A stretch of 64,000 nt of DNA. It comes from Craspedostauros australis. Taxonomy: Eukaryota; Bacillariophyta; Bacillariophyceae; Mastogloiales; Achnanthaceae. Positions 30,164-64,000 of this stretch are shown one piece after another. A model generated the notes under the pieces. The model was not told the DNA's origin and made no database searches. It saw nothing but the letters and a program-made list of their open reading frames with translations. The translations under genes and the position numbers were made by a program. The stretch is taken from NCBI GenBank assembly GCA_026770025.1, contig JAMXDE010000040.1, positions 434,001 to 498,000 of the forward strand, read 5' to 3'. Position 1 is the first letter of the stretch. Each line of letters begins with the position of its first letter.

Positions 30164-31963
30164 TTATGTGCAGGCTGGACAGGAGCTGCCGGACCCAATG
30201 TAAAAGAAGGCAGTGAGAGGAGTGCAGGAATTGGGGGCCTGGAGATCGTAGTAGCAGTAGCTACATCCGGAGTAGGGCACAACAGGTGTGTCGTTGCACA
30301 CGCCATCGGAGAGGTTGATGTCGGCGCTCCAGTAGAACTGGTAGCCCAAGTATCGGCAAGAGTTGGCTGACACGCAGGTGCCATCGCCAATCCTGGTGGA
30401 TCCCTCGAACTGGTTAAATGGGATGGCCGGGGAGACGTTAGTGTCGCTGACGTGGGCATTGACGTAAGAGCACGAATTGTTGTTGGTGCAGGATCCGGCC
30501 CCGACGATAGTGTCGGAGACACGTTTGTTGTCGGTGGTGCCGTTGCCCTGGGTTGGTGTGACGGTGGCGTAGCTGGTTGGTCCAGCACCCATCGCAGCAC
30601 ACGCACCGGTTCCGGTGCAGGAACCTGCGCCGACGATGGCATCACCATTGGACTGCTGGGCGAAGGCGTAGCACGAATTGTCTCCCTGGCATGATCCTGG
30701 AGCCACAACGGAGGCCTTGAAGGTTCCGGAGTTGAAGTTGAAGTACGCACAGGCGTTGTCGTCAGTGGGGCCGGGGCCGCTGATGCAGGATCCCTGGAAG
30801 ATGATGCTCTGGGGCTCGAGGCTGCTGCAGGCCGTAGTTCCAATGCAGCTGTTGGATGCGATGGATGCAATGCCCACCCAAGAGCAAGCGTTGGTTCCAG
30901 TGCAGCAGGGTCGTCCTCCTTCGGCGCACCAGGCGATGGCGTCGGCGTCAGTTCCGGTGAACATATCTCCGTCAGCGGCGAGTGCGGCAGTGAATGCCTC
31001 GAAAACACCGGTCTTTGTGCTGATGGCGTTGTAGAGGTCGAGAGCGTCATCGAGGGTGGCCTGGTTGGCGAAGATACCGACGAGGTCGTCCTTGCTCTCG
31101 ATGGCGGCGAGGAGAGCGCCTTCGTCTTCGGGGCCCAGTAGTTCGATCGCGTCCACGAAGGGGCCGATTTTGTCGACAGTTGGTGCGGATGTTGGGGCAT
31201 TTGTTGGTGCAGAAGTTGGTGCGGATGTTGGGGCATTTGTTGGTGCAAAAGTTGGTGCGGATGTGGGAGCGCTGGTTGGAGCCGATGTTGGTGCGGATGT
31301 GGGGGCGCTGGTTGGAGCCGATGTTGGGGTATGGGTGGGTGCCGAAGTTGGGGCGCCGGTTGGTGCGGATGTTGGGGCATTTGTTGGTGCGGAAGTCGTG
31401 ACAGTTGGTGCAGAAGCTGGGGCGCTGGTTGGGGCATTTGTTGGTGCGGAAGTTGGTGCAGAAGTTGGGGCGCTGGTTGGTGCGCTGGTTGGGCTCACGG
31501 TTGGCGCCGATGTCGGAGCGCTGGTTGGCGAGATACAGGTTGGGGCAGCGGGCATGTCGGTGGTATTGTTCTTATTGGTCTTCATGCCGCCTTTGCCTTT
31601 TCCTTTGCCTTTTCCTTCGCCTTTGCCGTTGCATATGGGTTTTCCGTCGCCTTTGCCTTTGCCTTTGCCATCGCCTTTGACTTGTTTGTCGCCTTTGCCC
31701 TTGCCCTTTTCATACTTAGATTCGTATTCGGAAGGAGGGCTTGTCGCGGTGTACTCGCTGATGCGGCGGAGCTTCTTGGTGATGCTGGTGACCTCCTCGA
31801 TCTTTCTCTCATTGTTTCCGTAGTAAGTCCAGGAGAGCTTGCTGTTTCCGGCGACCTTTTCTTCCTTGTTGGCTGGGATGCGTACGTTGGCGACGACCTT
31901 CTCGTCGGCGGTGGCGGTGGTGGCGATATGGGCCAAGATGAGGGAGCTGGCTGCGAACTTCAT
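30164..31963 (-). CDS. Secreted protein with Lys/Gly-rich region, APT-repeat linker and Cys-rich repeat domain
   Basis: 599 codons, ATG at 31963, no intron. Residues 1-19 (MKFAASSLILAHIATTATA) form a signal peptide. A small N-terminal domain follows (KVVANVRIPANKEEKVAG, LSWTYYGNNERK). Next is a basic low-complexity stretch of KGKG/KGDGK units (~95-140), a PTSAPTSAPT linker (~150-265), a helical segment (IGPFVDAIELLGPEDEGAL, DDALDLYNAIS), and a C-terminal Cys-rich domain of about seven repeats of the form (I/V)GxGSCxxxxxC (VAPGSCQGDNSCYAF; IVGAGSCTGTGACAAMG; IGDGTCVSANSCRYLG). The repeats suggest a disulfide-rich beta-solenoid. Signal peptide, Lys-rich and Ser/Thr/Pro-rich regions are reminiscent of diatom cell-wall or mucilage proteins; this is inference. 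A second, disrupted copy lies at 62638-64000 in opposite orientation. Confidence 0.85.
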   Translation of the reverse strand: MKFAASSLILAHIATTATADEKVVANVRIPANKEEKVAGNSKLSWTYYGNNERKIEEVTSITKKLRRISEYTATSPPSEYESKYEKGKGKGDKQVKGDGKGKGKGDGKPICNGKGEGKGKGKGKGGMKTNKNNTTDMPAAPTCISPTSAPTSAPTVSPTSAPTSAPTSAPTSAPTNAPTSAPASAPTVTTSAPTNAPTSAPTGAPTSAPTHTPTSAPTSAPTSAPTSAPTSAPTSAPTFAPTNAPTSAPTSAPTNAPTSAPTVDKIGPFVDAIELLGPEDEGALLAAIESKDDLVGIFANQATLDDALDLYNAISTKTGVFEAFTAALAADGDMFTGTDADAIAWCAEGGRPCCTGTNACSWVGIASIASNSCIGTTACSSLEPQSIIFQGSCISGPGPTDDNACAYFNFNSGTFKASVVAPGSCQGDNSCYAFAQQSNGDAIVGAGSCTGTGACAAMGAGPTSYATVTPTQGNGTTDNKRVSDTIVGAGSCTNNNSCSYVNAHVSDTNVSPAIPFNQFEGSTRIGDGTCVSANSCRYLGYQFYWSADINLSDGVCNDTPVVPYSGCSYCYYDLQAPNSCTPLTAFFYIGSGSSCPACT

Positions 31964-33129
31964 TGCGTTGGTTGTTTGGTTTGGTTAGCTTGTGAGGTTT
32001 CGGACGTTGATGTCTGTATTTGTTCGTTTGTCGTGAGCACGCGAGTTGCGGCCGTCGTCAGATGGGTAAATGAGAGATATAGAAGCAAGTCGATTGGTGT
32101 GAGCAAAGAGGTTGGAACGTGATGGCATATGTGGATGTGGCGCCGACAGCGTTTGTGATCTGCTCTGTGTTGGTTGGAGTCCGATGGGCGTGGCGAGTTT
32201 CATCATGTCGCCGCGCGTTGTCGTTGCGTGGTGCGGCATGCCACGGCCAACAGAACTTCAACTTCGTTGTGTCTGTGACACATGGTGGTTTTGGCGACGA
32301 ATCAAGCGAAGCGGGCACCAAGGGACGGTCGGGCGAGAAGTCCACGATTATTTCTTGCCGGTACAGGTGCGTGCCACAGTGATGAGGGTCGATGGGATCG
32401 TCGCGATTGTTGCTTGATAGCTTCGCCCCGCCAATCATCATGTTGGTCCTTGGTGCCCCTCACCACTATGGTCTGCGCCGCGATGGTCTGCGCCACCGTG
32501 TGGACGTCTGCGATGTTGAAGTCCTACTGTCATGGCGCTGCTGCCATTGCCGGCGCCGCCATGATGGCTGTGATTGTCATTGGAATGACGACTTGCTACA
32601 GCCACGGAGGCAGCGGCAGTTGCCATTGAGGGCGGAGTGCTGCATCTTGTCTTACCGTTTGTTTGTTGTGCAGCTGGCTGTATTTGCTGGTCGGTTTTGA
32701 TTGTGAGATAATCAAGTTTTGTGAGAAGAGAAGGTCGCTCTTCGACGTGTTTGCTTTGCTTTTGCTTTTGGTGACGACGATGTGCGAAGCTGCGATCGAG
32801 TCCGACCTACCAATAAGGTGGGGAAAGTGCACGGCAGAGTACAACTCGATGCGTGCTGGTGGAGTGCTGTGTGGCGTGGTGCGGTGCAGCATGGTGTGAT
32901 GTGGTGTGGCCCTCGCGCGAGTGGGTTGACCAAAGACGTCGTGGGGAACCACAATTGCCACAATCCTTTTGGTGGCGGCAGGGGATTGCCCCAAATTTGC
33001 ATTTGCGGGTTCGCGTCTCATGCGTGATCCTCGCAACAATTTCATCGGCGAACACACAGAAAACACAAAGCGAGAGCTGAAACTCAAGTTGATGTGTGGA
33101 ACACAAATTTGGAACGTTCAAGACACGCC

Positions 33130-33470
33130 GCAGCGAAAATGTGACACCTTTCTCGGGAAACCCTCTCAGATTTCCTGATAAATTGTTTATGTCGTTCCTC
33201 TCTGTGAGAAAGTTACGGACTGACCTTCCTTGAATTGCAAGAAATTATCTCTGACAAGTTATGAGGGCTTGAGTTGAGAAATCTCCCACAGTAGTCCGTG
33301 CTATAGGTGTTTTGCTTTCGGTCGCACATGAGCGCGACTCGTCATTTTCTTCGACTTGGACATCGGTTAGCGGAGAAACCGTTGTTGTTCTCTCTCAGAC
33401 GGACTCACAACAATGCGCCCGAAGCCGCCCTTGGACGTGTCTACAGCTGTGCGAACGAGCAGGTGTCTTT
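33130..33470 (+). repeat. Diverged direct repeat, copy 1
   Basis: Shares ordered blocks with 34285-34630: CTTTCTCGGGAA, TTATGAGGGCTTGAGTTGAG, CGACTCGTCATT and CTCTCTCAGACGGACTCACA. A third copy, inverted, is at about 60270-60590 as part of the large duplication. No coding capacity is evident. Confidence 0.75.
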
Positions 33471-34284
33471 TCTGCGACAAGAAGGTCTCCGCCTCCGTTT
33501 ACCTCGACTCCGAATGCCCGTTAAATGGGCGCTGATGTCAACTGCGATTGAAGTCTGCTTGAGCCACTTTCAGAGTCGAAGATGGAGCATCAGAAACCAC
33601 AAACCAACCTCCGCATGCAGGACGGATCCGTTCGCATCGTGTTGTGATGTGTGAAAGGTTGTCCCCATGGTGTTAGTGTTGCTTCGCATGATGAAATGAC
33701 ATTGGCTTACTTCAGCCCGTGTCCTTGTCTGTTCCTTCGCTCTTGTTTTTGTTTTCGCTCTCGGTCTCGCTTTTGGGCTGGGTCGTGTTCTGTGAATGCC
33801 GGAGTGTCATCAGAGAGACACTGTACTTCACTTCGAATTGCATCGGAGCCATGACGCACTTTCCCATCAATCAGACCGCAATACCATGCGCTGCAATCAT
33901 GCAGAAATCTGATGCAGTTTGTGGGAGGTTAGCGCGAAGGATCGATGGAGAAATGGAGCAATCTCTGCATGGAGTGCTCGTACTCGTCCTCGCACTGTAT
34001 GCGGGATTGATACGTTCGCACGTTGTGTTGATGGTGTCTGGAATTGCCATTGCGTTCCCGTGGCTGCGCCTGCATACGACCCCATTCAGGGTACGATGGT
34101 ACGTTCCTGTCGATTTTTAATCAGACAACATGACTTTTTTGCAAATGACGTGGCATTTTGTCCATTAGGGTTGGATACATCCACAAGGATTTTTGGTCGC
34201 ACAAAAGTCAAAAATTCGCGTGAGAATGCAACAGTCCCAGAAAATTTCGATTTCTTGCGCGTGGACGTAATGGGAGAAATAGTG

Positions 34285-54824: not shown

Positions 54825-55620
54825 TGTTGGCAAGTTCCGCTCACGGTAACCTACGATCGTGGAAGATGGTGTTGGTTGATAGTCGTTCGTTTGCTATTTC
54901 ATTAGTTGGCTACTCCGATCCTCTCGGTGTACGCCGTTCTCTTGCCCAATGCTCTCGGTGCTTCAATCTGTTTCGCAGATTCAGTCTCCGACTATGAGTC
55001 GGTACGCGAGATGCTCTCTCGCTCCTCTCTGTATTCTCTCTCTTTCTCTCTCTCTCAACATCGTGTGCTCGTGCCGCACGATACTCCGTGCTCGATGCGT
55101 ACTCCGCATTCGACACTCCGTTCGTTCAGTACTGGTTCCTACTCCATGAGTACTTACCATTTGAAGTTCACCTTCAGTATCCATGATCTTCATGGGTCAT
55201 CGGATCTTTGCCTCCTGCTCTGACTTGGAGACAGATGTCGACGTGGTCACATGATGACATCCTGTTGACGTCAGTAGGCGTCCTTCTGCTCTCCAGATGT
55301 CACGTTCTATTGGTGATGCAGGAGTCTGTCAGATGATATCGTCATCTGAGGTTTAGTTGGGAAGTACCTCGAGATTCTCTTGGTACCATTGATGGATGGA
55401 CGGACGATCTTCCAATTCTCTCAGAAATCGTTATTTGCAAATTTCCTCCAGAAATCTTGCCCCTTTTCGTGTGTTCCATTTCCCCTGTAATTCTGACGAA
55501 TCACAGCATACTATCGACACGAATGTAGTTATACCGTCCAAGTGCGTATGAGAGAATAACGGGTGAACGATGCACATATACTCGTACATCTCGACATATA
55601 CTCACATGTACATCTCGACA
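54825..55620 (-). repeat. E2 5' LTR
   Basis: 796 bp, collinear with the copy at 47759-48554 with about 20 substitutions seen by eye. Its outer end adjoins the CAACTT duplication. Confidence 0.92.
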
Positions 55621-55626
55621 CAACTT

Positions 55627-57776
55627 GGGAGCGACGATCGGAGACCATGAAGAGCATGGAGGCCGACGACGTGGATCGCAGCAGCAGAGCGGAAGAAATA
55701 GAAGATACTGATGACGCTGCGCGAGGGCAAGATAGCTTGCTCCCTGCCCAAGGGGATAATGAATCGAACGAAAAGAACGACGATGAATTCGGAAGGGACG
55801 ACGAGGGGAATACAGACGAAGCGGCCGAGAAAGAGCCCAAAGGTACCCCTGTCGCAGAACCTGTAACACGCATACCAAGGATGCTGAGCGCTCTCGCAGG
55901 GTACAACAACGACCTCATCCCAGAGGAGGAGCGAGATCTCGGATCAAGTGATGAGTCAGAACCTAATGACAGCGAGGGATATGCGACGCCCGAAGAAACC
56001 ATCACAACTCCACCGGAAACAGGAGGACCCGACTTCCACGCAGACGGGTCAATATTCAACAGAGATATCGCAGGTACGATGATAGACACACCTCATGGAA
56101 TGATGAGACTAGATGACATCATCGCTGCGGACCAGGCATTGAAAGACGAACAAAATGAGTGCGGAGCAGAACACGCGAACGTCGCAATGCTCCTGGACCC
56201 TACCACATTCGAAGACTGCTGGGACCATGCGGATCCCAACAAAAGAAAGAAATGGCGCGAAGCTATCAACAAAGAGTTCTATGATATGGCCAGAAGGAAA
56301 GTATGGGAGAAAATCAAGAAGGACCAGATGCCGAAGGATCGGCGGTGTGTGAAGACCAAATGGGTTTTCAAGGAAAAGAGGAACGGGGTATTCCGCGCCA
56401 GACTCGTGGCATGCGGATACTCGCAGATCGCAGGAGTCGATTTCTCGGCACACCACGCACCAGTGATACATGATGCAACATACCGAATCATGCTCACGAT
56501 GAAGATGATATTACATATGGACAGTATCATCATCGACTTTGAGACAGCATTCCTGCATGGAGAACTCGATGAAGAGATCTACATGCAATGCCCAAAGGGT
56601 ATGAGGCACGAAGCCGACGAATGCCTGCTACTCAAGAAAACCATCTACGGACTCGTGCAGAGCGCGAGACAATGGAATAAGAAGCTCGTCGACATCCTAT
56701 TCAAATTGGGGTTCAGACAGAGCGAGGTGGACCCATGCCTGCTGATTCGGAATCAGGAAGGGAGACTGCTACTGATCGGCACCTATGTGGACGATTGCCT
56801 CTGCATCGGAGAGGAGCAGGAATTGAAGAAGCTTGTGAAGGATATCCGAGCGGAACGATTCGGAGTCAAGGTGGAAGAAGATCTCGAAGACTACCTGAGC
56901 TGCAAAATCATCTTCAATCACGACAAGACCAACTGTTGGGTGAACCAACCACACATCCTCAAGAACATCGTCGACACGTTCGGAAGTGACGTGGTGAAGC
57001 TACAACGATACAGAACACCAGGGACACCAGGGCAAGGTATCCAAAGGTAAAGTGATGCACCCAAGGTGGACAAGCAACGACACAGCAGATACCGAAGCGG
57101 AGTAGGTATGCTACTGTACCTGGTGAAACACTCTCGACCCGACATCGCCAATGCAGTGCGAGAACTGACCAAGGTATTGGATGGGCCAACGGCCGCAGCA
57201 TACAAGGAAATGCTACGAGTCATGAAGTTCGTGTGGGACACGAGAGAATATGGACTGAAGATGAAACCAAGTCTACTGACCAACGATGCATGGAAGATTG
57301 CAATATACACCGACAGTGAATTCGCAGGTGACAAAGACAATCGCATCAGCGTGGGAGGGCACATCGTCCTACTACAAGGAGTGCCGATCATATGGAGATC
57401 AAAGGCACAACGGAGTGTAACACTCAGCTCGACAGAAGCAGAGTACGTTGCCCTGTCGGAAGCAGGAAAAGAAATTCGCTTCGTGACACAATTGATGAGC
57501 GACATCGGACTGAGGATGCACAAGCCAGCAGATGTGATGGTCGACAATGTCGGAGCAATCTTCATCGCCTCCAACCCATCAACATCCGCCAGGACACGAC
57601 ACATCGACATCCAACATCATTTCATTCGAGAACTGATTACAAATGGAGAGGCCAGAACCAAGTTTGTGCGTTCTGAAGACAACATCGCAGACGGCTTTAC
57701 GAAGAATACCAAAAAGGAGACCTACGAAAAGCACAAGGATCACTACATCCAACTGCGTTCCACAATGGATCAGTGA
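55627..57776 (+). pseudogene. E1 reverse transcriptase and RNase H region
   Basis: Pol frame resumes after E2. An acidic linker leads into RT: KTKWVFKEKRNGVFRARLVA, CGYSQIAGVDFSAHHAPV, AFLHGELDEEIYMQCPKG, YGLVQSARQWNKKLV and the YVDDCLCIGE box. After RT the frame meets TAA (57048-57050) in the linker following GTPGTPGQ, then continues in the same frame: RYRSGVGMLLYLVKHSRPDI and RNase H with YTDSEFAGDKDNR, SSTEAEYVALSEAGKE and TRHIDIQHHFIRE, ending at 57776. Sequence is close to E2 but clearly a different family. Confidence 0.88.
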
Positions 57777-59800: not shown

Positions 59801-61905
59801 CTCCGACGTGATGCGAAGTGAAGTGAAGTGTCTCTCTGATGACACTCCGGTATTCACAGAACACGACCCAGTCCAAAAGCGAGACCGAGAGTGAAAACAA
59901 AAACAAGAGTGTCTCTCTGATGACAATCCGGTATCCACAGAACACGACCCAGTCCAAAAGCGAGACCGAGAGTGAAAACAAAAACAAGAGCGAAGGAACA
60001 GACAAGGACGCGGGCTGAAGTAAGCCAATGTCATTTTCATGATGCGAAGCAACAGCAACACAGTGGGACAACCTGCCACACATCACAACGCGATGCGACG
60101 GATCCATCCTGCATACGAAGTGTCTTCATGGTTTCTGATGCTCCATCTTCGACTCTGAAAGTGGCTCAAGCAGACTTCAATCGCAGTTGACATCAGTGCC
60201 CATTTAACGGGCATTCGGAGTCAAGGTAAACGGAGGCGGAGACCTTCTTGTCGCAGAAAAGACACCTGCTCGTTCGCACAGCTGTAGACACGTCCGAGGG
60301 CGGCTTCGAGCGCATTGTTGTGAGCCCATCTGAGAGAGAACAACAACGGTTTCTCCGCTAACCGATGTCCAAGTCGAAGAAAATGACGAGTCGCGCTCAT
60401 GTGCGACCGAAAGCAAAACACCTATAGCACGGACTACTGTGGGAGATTTCTCAACTCAAGCCCTCATAACTTATCAGAGATAATTTCTTGCAATTCAAGG
60501 AAGGTCAGGCCGTAACTTTCTCACAGAGAGGAACGACATAAACAATTTATCAGGAAATCTGAGAGGGTTTCCCGAGAAAGGTGTCACATTTTCGCTGCGG
60601 CGTGTCTCGAACGTTCCAAATTTGTGTTCCATGCGCCAACTTGAGTTCCAGCTCTCGCTTTGTGTTTTCTCTGTGTGTTCACCGATGAAATTGTTGCGAG
60701 GATCGCGCGTGAGGCGCGAACCCGCAAATGCAAATTTGGGGCAATCCCTTGCCGACACGAAAAGGATTGTGGCAATTGTGGTTCCCCACGACGTCTTTGG
60801 TCAACCCACTCGCGCGAGGGCCATACCACACCACACAGCACTCCACCAGCATGCATCGAGTTGTACTCTGCCGTGCACTTTCCCCACCTTATTGGTAGGT
60901 CGGACTCGATCGCAGCTTCGCACATCGTCGTCACCAAAAGCAAAAGCAAAGCAAACACGTCGAAGAGCGACGTTCTCTTCTCACAAAACTTGATTATCTC
61001 ACAATCAAAACCGACCAGCAAATACAGCCAGCTGCACAACAAACAAACGGTAAGACAAGATGCAGCACTCCGCCCTCAATGGCAACTGCCGCTGCCTCCG
61101 TGGCTGTAGCAAGTCGTCATTCCAATGACAATCACAGCCATCATGGCGGCGCCGGCAATGGCAGCAGCGCCATGACAGTAGGACTTCAACATCGCAGACG
61201 TCCACACGGTGGCGCAGACCATCGCGGCGCAGACCATAGTGGTGAGGGGCACCAAGGACCAACATGATGATTGGCGGGGCGAAGCTATCAAGCAACAATC
61301 GCGACGATCCCATCGACCCTCATCACTGTGGCACGCACCTGTACCGGCAAGAAATAATCGTGGACTTCTCGCCCGACCGTCCCTTGGTGCCCGCTTCGCT
61401 TGATTCGTCGCCAAAACCACCATGTGTCACAGACACAACGAAGTTGAAGTTCTGTTGGCCGTGGCATGCCGCACCACGCAACGACAACGCGCGGCGACAT
61501 GATGAAACTCGCCACGTCCACCGGACTCCAACCAACACAGAGCGGATCACAAACGCTGTCGGCGCCACATCCACATATGCCATCACGTTCCAACCTCTTT
61601 GCTCACACCAATCGACTTGCTTCTATATCTCTCATTTACCCATCTGACGACGGCCGCAACTCGCGTGCTCACGACAAACGAACAAATACAAACATCAACG
61701 TCCGAAACCTCACAAGCTAACCAAACCAAACAACCAACGCAATGAAGTTCGCAGGGGCTTCCGGTAAACTGCCGGATATGGTGGTCCGAGTGAATTTTAA
61801 CGGACTGACGAACAATGTTAGTCGTGAACGAGATTTTATTAGTCTTGGTTGCCATGTCCTTCAGACATTGTCGTCGCCACTCGCGACTCGTATCTGTGCG
61901 ATGTC

Positions 61906-62081
61906 AAAAGATGCCCTAAAATAGGGCACGTTCTCAAACCATGCCCTAAATTAGGGCACCTTTTCAAAACGTGCCTTATATAGGGCATCTTTTGAAAACG
62001 TGCCTTATATAGGGCACCTTTTCAAAACGTGCCTTAAATAGGGCATGTTTTCAAAACGTGCCCTAAATAGGGCACCTTTTC
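61906..62081. repeat. Left array: six 29-30-bp units with a palindromic core
   Basis: Units start near 61912, 61942, 61971, 62000, 62029 and 62058. Each has a core such as TGCCCTAAATAGGGCA (arms TGCCCTA/TAGGGCA, sometimes TGCCTTA) followed by CCTTTTCAAAACG. Same orientation as the right array. Confidence 0.93.
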
Positions 62082-62296
62082 TCCCTCATCCACACGTCGC
62101 TGTTCGCAGCCGATTGGACGACAGAAAGAGCAAGAGCAAATCCCGCGCAACAACGCGACGACAGAGGATTATCAAAGTCATGTCACGCCAAGATGACGAT
62201 AAGTATTAGTGTTCTGATTCGTCATTCGGTGACGTCCACATCGTTCCCCGTTGATGGTTTTGTGGAATGTGCCCATCGTGGCTGGGCTGTTGTGAA

Positions 62297-62472
62297 ACAA
62301 AACGTGCCCTATTTAGGGCATCTTTTCAAAACGTGCCCTATTTAGGGCATCTTTTCAAAACGTGCCTTATATAGGGCATCTTTTCAAAACGTGCCTTAAA
62401 TAGGGCATCTTTTCAAAACGTGCCCTAAATAGGGCATCTTTTCAAAACGTGCCCTATTTTAGGGCATCTTTT
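62297..62472. repeat. Right array: six 29-30-bp units with a palindromic core
   Basis: Units start near 62304, 62333, 62362, 62391, 62420 and 62449, with core GTGCCCTATTTAGGGCA or variants and linker TCTTTTCAAAAC. Separated from the left array by a 215-bp unique core (62082-62296). Confidence 0.93.
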
Positions 62473-62637
62473 TTTCACTGCAGGCTAGAGACAATTCAAT
62501 CACGGATTGATATAACCAAAAATGCCAAGTACGACATTCCAACCAGGACTAAGAATTTCGCATTCACGACTAATATGGTCCGTTAACCAAATCATGATGC
62601 TGTTCGTTAGTCCGATAGTCCGTTTTACCGGAAGCCC

Positions 62638-64000
62638 CAGCCAGCTCCCTCATCTTGGCCCATATCGTCACCACCGCCACCGCCGACGAGAAGGTCGTCG
62701 CCAACGTACGCATCCCAGCCAACAAGGAAGAAAAGGTCGCCGGAAACAGCAAGCTCTCCTGGACTTACTACGGAAACAATGAGAGAAAGATCGAGGAGGT
62801 CACCAGCGTCACCAAGAAGCTCCGCCGCATCAAGGAGTACACCGCGACAAGCCCTCCTTCCGAATACGAATCCAAGTATGAAAAGGGCAAGGGCAAGGGC
62901 AAAGGCGACAAACAAGTCAAAGGCGACGGAAAACCCATATGCAACGGCAAAGGCAACGGCAAAGGCGACGGCAAAGGCGACGGCAAAGGAAACGGCAAAA
63001 GCGACGGCAAAGGCGACGACAAAGGCGACGGCAAAGGCAAAGGCGGCGGCATGAAGAACACGAAGGACAATACCAATGACATGCCCGCTGCCCCAACCTG
63101 TATCTCGCCAACCAGCGCTCCGACATCGGCGCCAACCGTGATCCCAACCAGCACCCCAACTTCTGCACCAACTTTGGCGCCCACCCGTACCCCAACCAGC
63201 GCCCCGACATCGGCGCCAACCGTGATCCCAACCAGCGCCTCAACTTCTGCACCAACTTCGGTGCCCACCCGTACCCCAACCAGCGCTCCGACTTCTGCAC
63301 CAACCAGGGCCCCGACTTCTGCACCAACCAGTGCTCCGACATCGGCGCCAACCGTGAGCCCAACCAGCGCACCAACCAGCGCCCCAACTTCTGCACCAAC
63401 TTCGGTGCCCACCCGTACCCCAACCAGCGCTCCGACTTCTGCACCAACCAGGGCCCCGACTTCTGCACCAACCAGCGCCCCGACATCGGCGCCAACCGTG
63501 AGCCCAACCAGCGCACCAACCAGCGCCCCAACTTCTGCACCAACTTCGGCGCCCACCCGTACCCCAACCAGCGCTCCGACTTCTGCACCAACCAGCGCTC
63601 CGACATCGGCGCCAACCGTGAGCCCAACCAGCGCACCAACTTCTGCACCAACTTCGGCACCAACAAATGACCCAACATCCGCACCAATTGCCACGACTTC
63701 CGCGCCAACAAATGCACCAACCAGCGCCCCGACATCGGCGCCAACCGTGAGCCCAACTAGCGCACCAACCAGCGCCCCAACTTCGGCACCCACCCGTACC
63801 CCAACATCCGTACCAACTCTCACGACTTCCGCACCAACAAATGCCCCAACATCCGCACCCACCGTCACAACCTCGGCACCAACCAGCGCACCAACTGTCG
63901 ACAAAATCGGCCCCTTCGTGGATTTGATCGGCCTACTGGCCCCCGAAGACGAAGGCGCTCTCCTCGCCGCCATCGAGAGCAAGGACGACCTCGTCGGTAT
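62638..64000 (+). pseudogene. Disrupted paralogue of the secreted APT-repeat protein (3' partial)
   Basis: The original start (MKFA, ATG at 61742) is separated from the rest by the inserted element. The frame downstream (SSLILAH-equivalent onward) has an in-frame TAG inside the insertion at 62616-62618, and no good ATG before the mature region. The remaining coding sequence is intact: KVVANVRIPANKEEKVAG, KGKG/KGDGK stretch with an extra run of KGDGKGNGKSDGK type, then a much longer APT-repeat linker (63098-63900, about 265 residues versus about 128 in the other copy), and IGPFVDLIGLLAPEDEGAL at the window edge. Expression would need the element to be spliced out or a new start. Confidence 0.82.

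Follow-up and report, generated by a model that had tools for sequence, protein, structure and literature searches.

Palindromic subterminal arrays in a probable PIF/Harbinger-type MITE of Craspedostauros australis and its 5.6-kb relative

Two arrays of short palindromic repeats lie close together in the window (the whole 64,000-nucleotide stretch of Craspedostauros australis DNA analysed here), raising the question of what kind of element carries them and what, if anything, they do for it. The carrier is a non-coding DNA transposon (MITE) of 883 bp, at positions 61755–62637. A first-pass annotation made from the letters alone had described a terminal inverted repeat (TIR) element with exact borders, perfect 14-bp TIRs, a 3-bp CAG duplication and a paralogous empty site. 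Each of these was recovered at the same coordinates: the TIRs read GGGCTTCCGGTAAA, CAG stands on both sides, and the empty site lies in the same window at 31951–31953 on the minus strand, where a joined-flank search spanned it with a contiguous 320-base match (99%). No open reading frame of 120 or more amino acids overlapping the element was found. The features are collected in Table 1.

Table 1 Features of the insertion and of the gene that it interrupts, in window positions.
Feature	Position	Strand	Remarks
Target-site duplication CAG, left copy	61752..61754	.	Flanks and empty site
Left TIR, GGGCTTCCGGTAAA	61755..61768	+	
Left subterminal region	61769..61911	.	First dyad from element position 158
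Left array, six dyads	61912..62081	+	Element positions 158, 188, 218, 247, 276, 305; period 29–30 bp
Core	62082..62297	.	Between left and right arrays
Right array, six dyads	62298..62472	+	Element positions 551, 580, 609, 638, 667, 696; same orientation as left array
Right subterminal region	62473..62623	.	Last dyad centre 178–180 bp from right end in 9/9 elements
Right TIR	62624..62637	-	
Target-site duplication CAG, right copy	62638..62640	.	
Interrupted host gene	61742..64000	+	Insertion near codon 5 of signal-peptide-like start
Inverted paralogue and upstream region without insertion (empty site)	31074..33822	-	

Twelve palindromic units had been proposed, and a dyad was found in all twelve, but the exact sequence TGCCCTAAATAGGGCA occurs in just two; the other units differ in central bases or in one left-arm base. 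Seven of the dyads have perfect 7-bp arms and five carry one T/G mismatch (the TGCCTTA form). TRF reported 29-bp arrays at 61915–62081 (5.7 copies) and 62298–62472 (6.0 copies). The spacer of the unit, TTTTCAAAA, is itself symmetric, so that the whole unit nearly equals its own reverse complement. Complementarity between the two arrays is 81%, although they run in the same direction.

We searched the genome (74.8 Mb, 90 contigs) for further copies. Exact TIR ends numbered 50, with none for a reversed-pattern control, and the unit pattern gave 137 matches, again with none for the control. The two explanations that the first-pass annotation had set against a transposon family both fell away. A single-copy feature is ruled out by the genome-wide copies, which include 13 independent complete MITE insertions, and satellite DNA by the position of the units: all 100 unit matches listed, of the 137 counted, lie inside copies of the element family (compared by eye). 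Together with four insertions of a 5.6-kb relative, the MITE insertions give 17 independent sites. All 17 show a CWG duplication, a class that makes up 3.4% of the 3-mers in the window, and no extended target preference beyond CWG was obvious among them. This set omits L021, L023 and L024, which have unequal sides, L022, the truncated copies L019, L020 and L025, and the copies with one fused array (the second copy at L021, L026–L029 and L045), several of which have common flanks and therefore reflect host duplications. Matching 3-bp duplications are present in 16 of the 19 complete copies, the remaining three (L021, L023 and L024) being older copies. Contiguous empty sites were found for all three insertions tried (window copy 99%, L001 96%, L008 95%). 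The L001 element is 100% identical to the window copy in different flanks, and among eight copies of 826/827 bp no aligned position differs. The family is mobile and, judging by these identities, recently active.

At the locus itself, the insertion interrupts a host gene whose intact paralogue starts MKFAASSLILAHI. Read from the original ATG, the frame ends within the element after 60 codons, and the downstream frame reaches 21 bases into it and has no ATG; the window copy is probably a knock-out of this host paralogue. The two paralogues belong to an inverted duplication (31074–33822 and 59908–64000; 95.7% over 1876 bp) that takes in a gene carrying long PTSAPT repeats as well as the region upstream of it; one copy of this duplication carries the MITE. 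The place of the window copy, directly after the host gene's start codon, and the 16–17-bp dyads, which may resemble the sites of dimeric factors, would be expected if the arrays bound a host protein and altered host transcription as a promoter, insulator or terminator, affecting where copies persist. We regard such a role as very improbable: the window insertion breaks the frame of the gene, and the unit matches listed (100 of 137) all fall within family copies, and the motif is therefore not a site found widely in the host.

The first-pass annotation had envisaged a longer relative encoding a transposase, and 5.6-kb copies with identical 14-bp TIRs and arrays of 7+6 units were found; the family thus has long and short forms with the same ends. 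Three of the long copies (L010, L012 and L013) match one another without a mismatch, each pair differing by one gap, and a fourth, on C1, is interrupted by L010 within its transposase gene. This nest spans C1:2396449–2407625 (L009, L010 and L011), with the full-length element inserted at CTG in the transposase gene of its sister copy. The transposase frame is intact (329 codons) and matches DDE_Tnp_4 (PF13359) with an E-value of 1.6e-14 and 54.3 bits, against a cut-off of 24.8; residues D167, D223 and E279 are invariant in all eight aligned transposases. An intact transposase frame suggests that the 5.6-kb element is autonomous. Searching solved structures with the transposase gave no match at E 0.1, and viral contigs gave none with a single-sequence query, which is sensitive to close relatives only. 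Scoring 122 of 459 candidates put the number of transposase matches in the genome at 125 or more, and many of the related frames have an internal TGA or TAG; by this measure its Harbinger complement is large and partly decayed.

A second conserved frame of the 5.6-kb element, of 374 codons, encodes what we call the accessory protein. Relatives of this protein lie within 7 kb of a transposase match in 32 of 43 cases, or 28 of 39 when the four copies of the 5.6-kb element are left out, compared with an expectation of about 2% for random places. The C-terminal part of the protein comprises two related domains, consistent with an internal duplication: comparison of this one pair (six sequences for the first domain and eight for the second, with borders chosen by eye) gave a local probability of 94.5% (E 8e-8) and a global one of 78.9% (E 1.9e-6). 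A Pfam scan of the protein and its relatives, apart from L093, which is close to L091, yielded nothing above the cut-off, and no Myb/SANT domain was found by Pfam in the accessory protein or in the other open reading frames scanned. For two further frames, of 192 and 231 codons (L012:2655–3926, plus strand), the only relatives are at three loci belonging to the nearest other transposase family. That family (L063–L065) is 55–57% identical and has long degenerate repeats upstream of the transposase, of CATCC type in L064 and L065 and with shorter units in L063.

The window element is almost certainly a PHIS-type (PIF/Harbinger) MITE. It is short and non-coding, has TIRs and a target-site duplication, and its ends are 82–86% identical to those of the putatively autonomous 5.6-kb element; the 3-bp length of the duplication and, through the 5.6-kb relative, the DDE_Tnp_4-type transposase are those of PIF/Harbinger. 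Within PHIS (PIF/Harbinger-ISL2EU-Spy), the NuwaI group is described as having CWG duplications, TIRs of 12–61 bp starting GGG, and a DDE transposase plus a second, Myb/SANT protein, and is reported from 16 animal genomes only in that survey (PMC4482050). The present family, which the first-pass annotation had not recognised, is by these marks PIF/Harbinger-type and nearest to NuwaI, given its CWG duplication (17/17) and a 14-bp TIR that starts with GGG. A DDE transposase accompanied by a second protein is a further likeness. It is unlike NuwaI in its second protein, where the scans detected no Myb/SANT domain, in its subterminal arrays, of which the NuwaI section of the survey makes no mention, and in its host, which has silicon-transporter and light-harvesting genes and, judged by these together with the PTSAPT repeat gene and the copia elements, has the look of a diatom. 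The CWG-targeting Harbinger type would thereby be extended beyond the animals of its survey (PMC4482050). Harbinger-like elements are known from Thalassiosira (PMC2806351), and Ectocarpus Harbingers are described with ANT or TNA duplications (PMC12477816).

Subterminal arrays are already known in PIF/Harbinger elements, from one Medicago subfamily. MtPH-A6-4, a PIF/Harbinger-like element of Medicago truncatula, has variable subterminal arrays of 60-bp units with a triplicated motif, placed in opposite orientation at the two ends, and TTA/TAA duplications (PMC2213677). The likeness lies in the variable arrays; the element described here differs from it in having 29-bp palindromic units (the searched text of that paper reports no palindrome), the same orientation at both ends, and CWG. 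The palindromic, same-direction form is a variant of this known arrangement. For subterminal palindromic or tandem arrays in MITEs we found no closer case than MtPH-A6-4 in the literature searched, and none of palindromic arrays in the same direction; subscription journals and Repbase lay outside that search.

The mPing/Ping and Harbinger3_DR systems are reminiscent of the pair of elements found here. In both, a DDE transposase mobilises a MITE in trans together with a second protein that binds DNA and has a Myb-like domain, and the Harbinger3 protein has been shown to bind TIRs and transposase (PMC2836001). Sequences of a MITE, a DDE transposase and a second protein are likewise present here, with the difference that Pfam found no Myb-like domain in the second protein. 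We propose that the MITE transposes by cut-and-paste into CWG sites, with the proteins provided in trans. Their probable source would be the 5.6-kb element found alongside it in the genome, whose TIRs and type of array are the same and which encodes a DDE transposase and a partner protein; cross-mobilisation of the MITE by this element is likely. The palindromic units could then serve as repeated sites for a DNA-binding protein that acts as a dimer, with the duplicated-domain accessory protein as the best candidate, and bound units may gather transposase near the TIRs. Since a unit is nearly its own reverse complement, arrays in the same direction can look alike from either end of the element. 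CACTA (En/Spm, TNPA) and hAT (Ac) elements have numerous short sites for protein binding immediately internal to their TIRs; the analogy is one of working only, their transposases and target duplications being unrelated, and no membership is claimed. To the combined explanation, a NuwaI-like PHIS MITE supplied in trans, with arrays that are candidate binding sites and that undergo deletion between one another, we assign a probability of roughly 0.7. Taken by itself, the proposal that the units are binding sites of transposition proteins stands at even odds.

How the arrays vary between copies bears directly on that proposal. The equal length of the two arrays had been offered as a clue to function, which was not borne out: unit number varies freely between copies, so equality is uninformative, and balanced arrays as a rule are ruled out by the counts in nine representative elements (6+6, 6+4, 5+5, 3+5, 2+5, 2+2 in three cases, and 7+6). 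These nine were drawn from the 19 complete elements, the other ten being near-identical to those used. In all nine, the first dyad is at element position 158 or 159 and the last dyad centre is at the distance from the right end given in Table 1, so that the outer edges are fixed and the variation falls on the inner side.

Such variability may instead mean that the same transposon carries passive arrays, grown by replication slippage or by gap repair after excision, with no job to do. The range of two to seven units per array fits this well, as does L018, which lacks three units and is otherwise unchanged; the repeats of MtPH-A6-4 have been attributed to abortive gap repair (PMC2213677), and at least two other families in this genome have arrays with unrelated motifs. 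Passive growth has more difficulty with the outer edge of each array, which is fixed in all nine elements, and with the dyad symmetry, which the MITEs and the 5.6-kb element have retained in spite of their divergence, since passive repeats need neither palindromes nor placement at both ends. We consider passive arrays possible, though the less favoured reading.

The proposed binding role is favoured by the same fixed distance from the TIRs (9/9) despite variable unit number, and by somewhat higher conservation of the arrays. Between MITE and 5.6-kb element, identity is 85.9% in the left and 90.7% in the right array, compared with 82.2% and 75.7% in the left and right terminal stretches outside them; the excess is modest, and homogenisation could yield the same difference. 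Overall, the MITE ends diverge from the 5.6-kb element by 14–25%, which tempers the case for cross-mobilisation; in alignment, the left part of the core (element 333–431) is 71% identical to it and the stretch from element position 513 to the right end 82%. Arrays with other motifs in two other local transposase families also favour a role. Both families are Harbinger-type and have tandem arrays near one end, with a 21-bp unit at 8/8 loci and a 20-bp unit at 2/2 loci (L074–L081 and L067–L068); these units are not obviously palindromic. Two further transposase families had no comparable array in the stretches examined. In the three families with readable ends, 14 of 14 ends adjoin CWG (by eye). 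Counting against binding are the lack of a detected Myb/SANT domain, the persistence of copies with just two units on each side or with a fused array of two or three, and the ability of tandem arrays to grow by slippage without function.

A more specific version, in which the arrays are a row of dimer sites for a novel two-domain accessory protein that replaces the Myb/SANT partner in an algal lineage of CWG-targeting Harbingers, and the element is its own MITE generator, is put forward only tentatively. If it were true, direction-neutral palindromic units would let two directly repeated arrays act as symmetrical ends, and one deletion between the arrays would make an autonomous copy compact and non-autonomous with its sites retained. 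More generally, the family points to an unnamed partner protein and bears on two questions: how full-length transposons give rise to MITEs, and by what means the PIF/Harbinger proteins recognise the two ends of an element.

The half-sites are unequally preserved. Among 72 units, the right half (TAGGGCA) is unchanged in 68 and the left half (TGCCCTA) in 33; most of the left-half changes are from C to T. The pattern is compatible with strict recognition of one half-site by a protein, or with G-U pairing in RNA; as the independent changes are few, we draw no conclusion. The first-pass annotation had expected a transcript to fold into a row of small hairpins. Minimum-energy structures showed long hairpins in its place, with neighbouring units paired together, at predicted energies far below those of shuffled sequences (z -15.0 and -14.7). 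Arrays that act through RNA, as long hairpins giving small RNAs that silence the family or as small-RNA precursors, would account for these energies, for several weak matches by shape to microRNA precursors, and for left-arm changes that keep a G-U pair. Any array of palindromes would fold likewise, though, and the C-to-T forms (TGCTCTA in the 5.6-kb element and TGCCTTA in the MITEs) stem from a small number of events and do not demonstrate selection on pairing; moreover, none of 20 weak Rfam matches reached the gathering score, which also rules out a known RNA family. An RNA role therefore appears unlikely.

Loss of whole units could be followed directly. L018 equals the 826-bp copies minus units 2–4 of the left array, exactly 88 bp. 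Copies of 402 and 363 bp consist of a left end, one array (three and two units, respectively) and a right end, with no core. The 363-bp form resembles the 5.6-kb element (85% left, 82% right) more than the MITEs (about 69–76%). A single two-unit array connects its left end to its right end, both of them ends of a relative of the 5.6-kb element, and the halves of the copy overlap inside that array. As the arrays are direct repeats, a single deletion between them yields just such a fused, core-less structure, and it is probable that the fused forms arose in this way. Both the lost units and the fused copies are most simply explained by recombination or slippage between repeats, and on the best reading of these sequences the arrays are also deletion hot spots. 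The sequenced copies of each fused form have common flanks and so represent two forms, not many events. Copies with two units per side, and the fused forms, have imperfect target-site duplications or flanks in common with other copies; they show that a large array is dispensable for persistence. The genome holds full-length, intermediate, unit-deleted and fused-array forms side by side, and several of these are the same or almost the same at different loci. With site numbers graded naturally from 2+2 to 7+6, the requirement for subterminal sites can be tested directly.

The window also contains other repeats. Frames at 55563–57776 presumably encode a copia-type reverse transcriptase and RNase H, and repeats of 87–99% identity link positions at 41.8–43.8, 47.8, 54.8 and 58.9 kb. 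The silicon-transporter family PF03842 has 88 matches in the genome, a very large family compared with diatom genomes, of which 28 cover at least 500 of the 513 positions without a stop; light-harvesting proteins have 61 matches.
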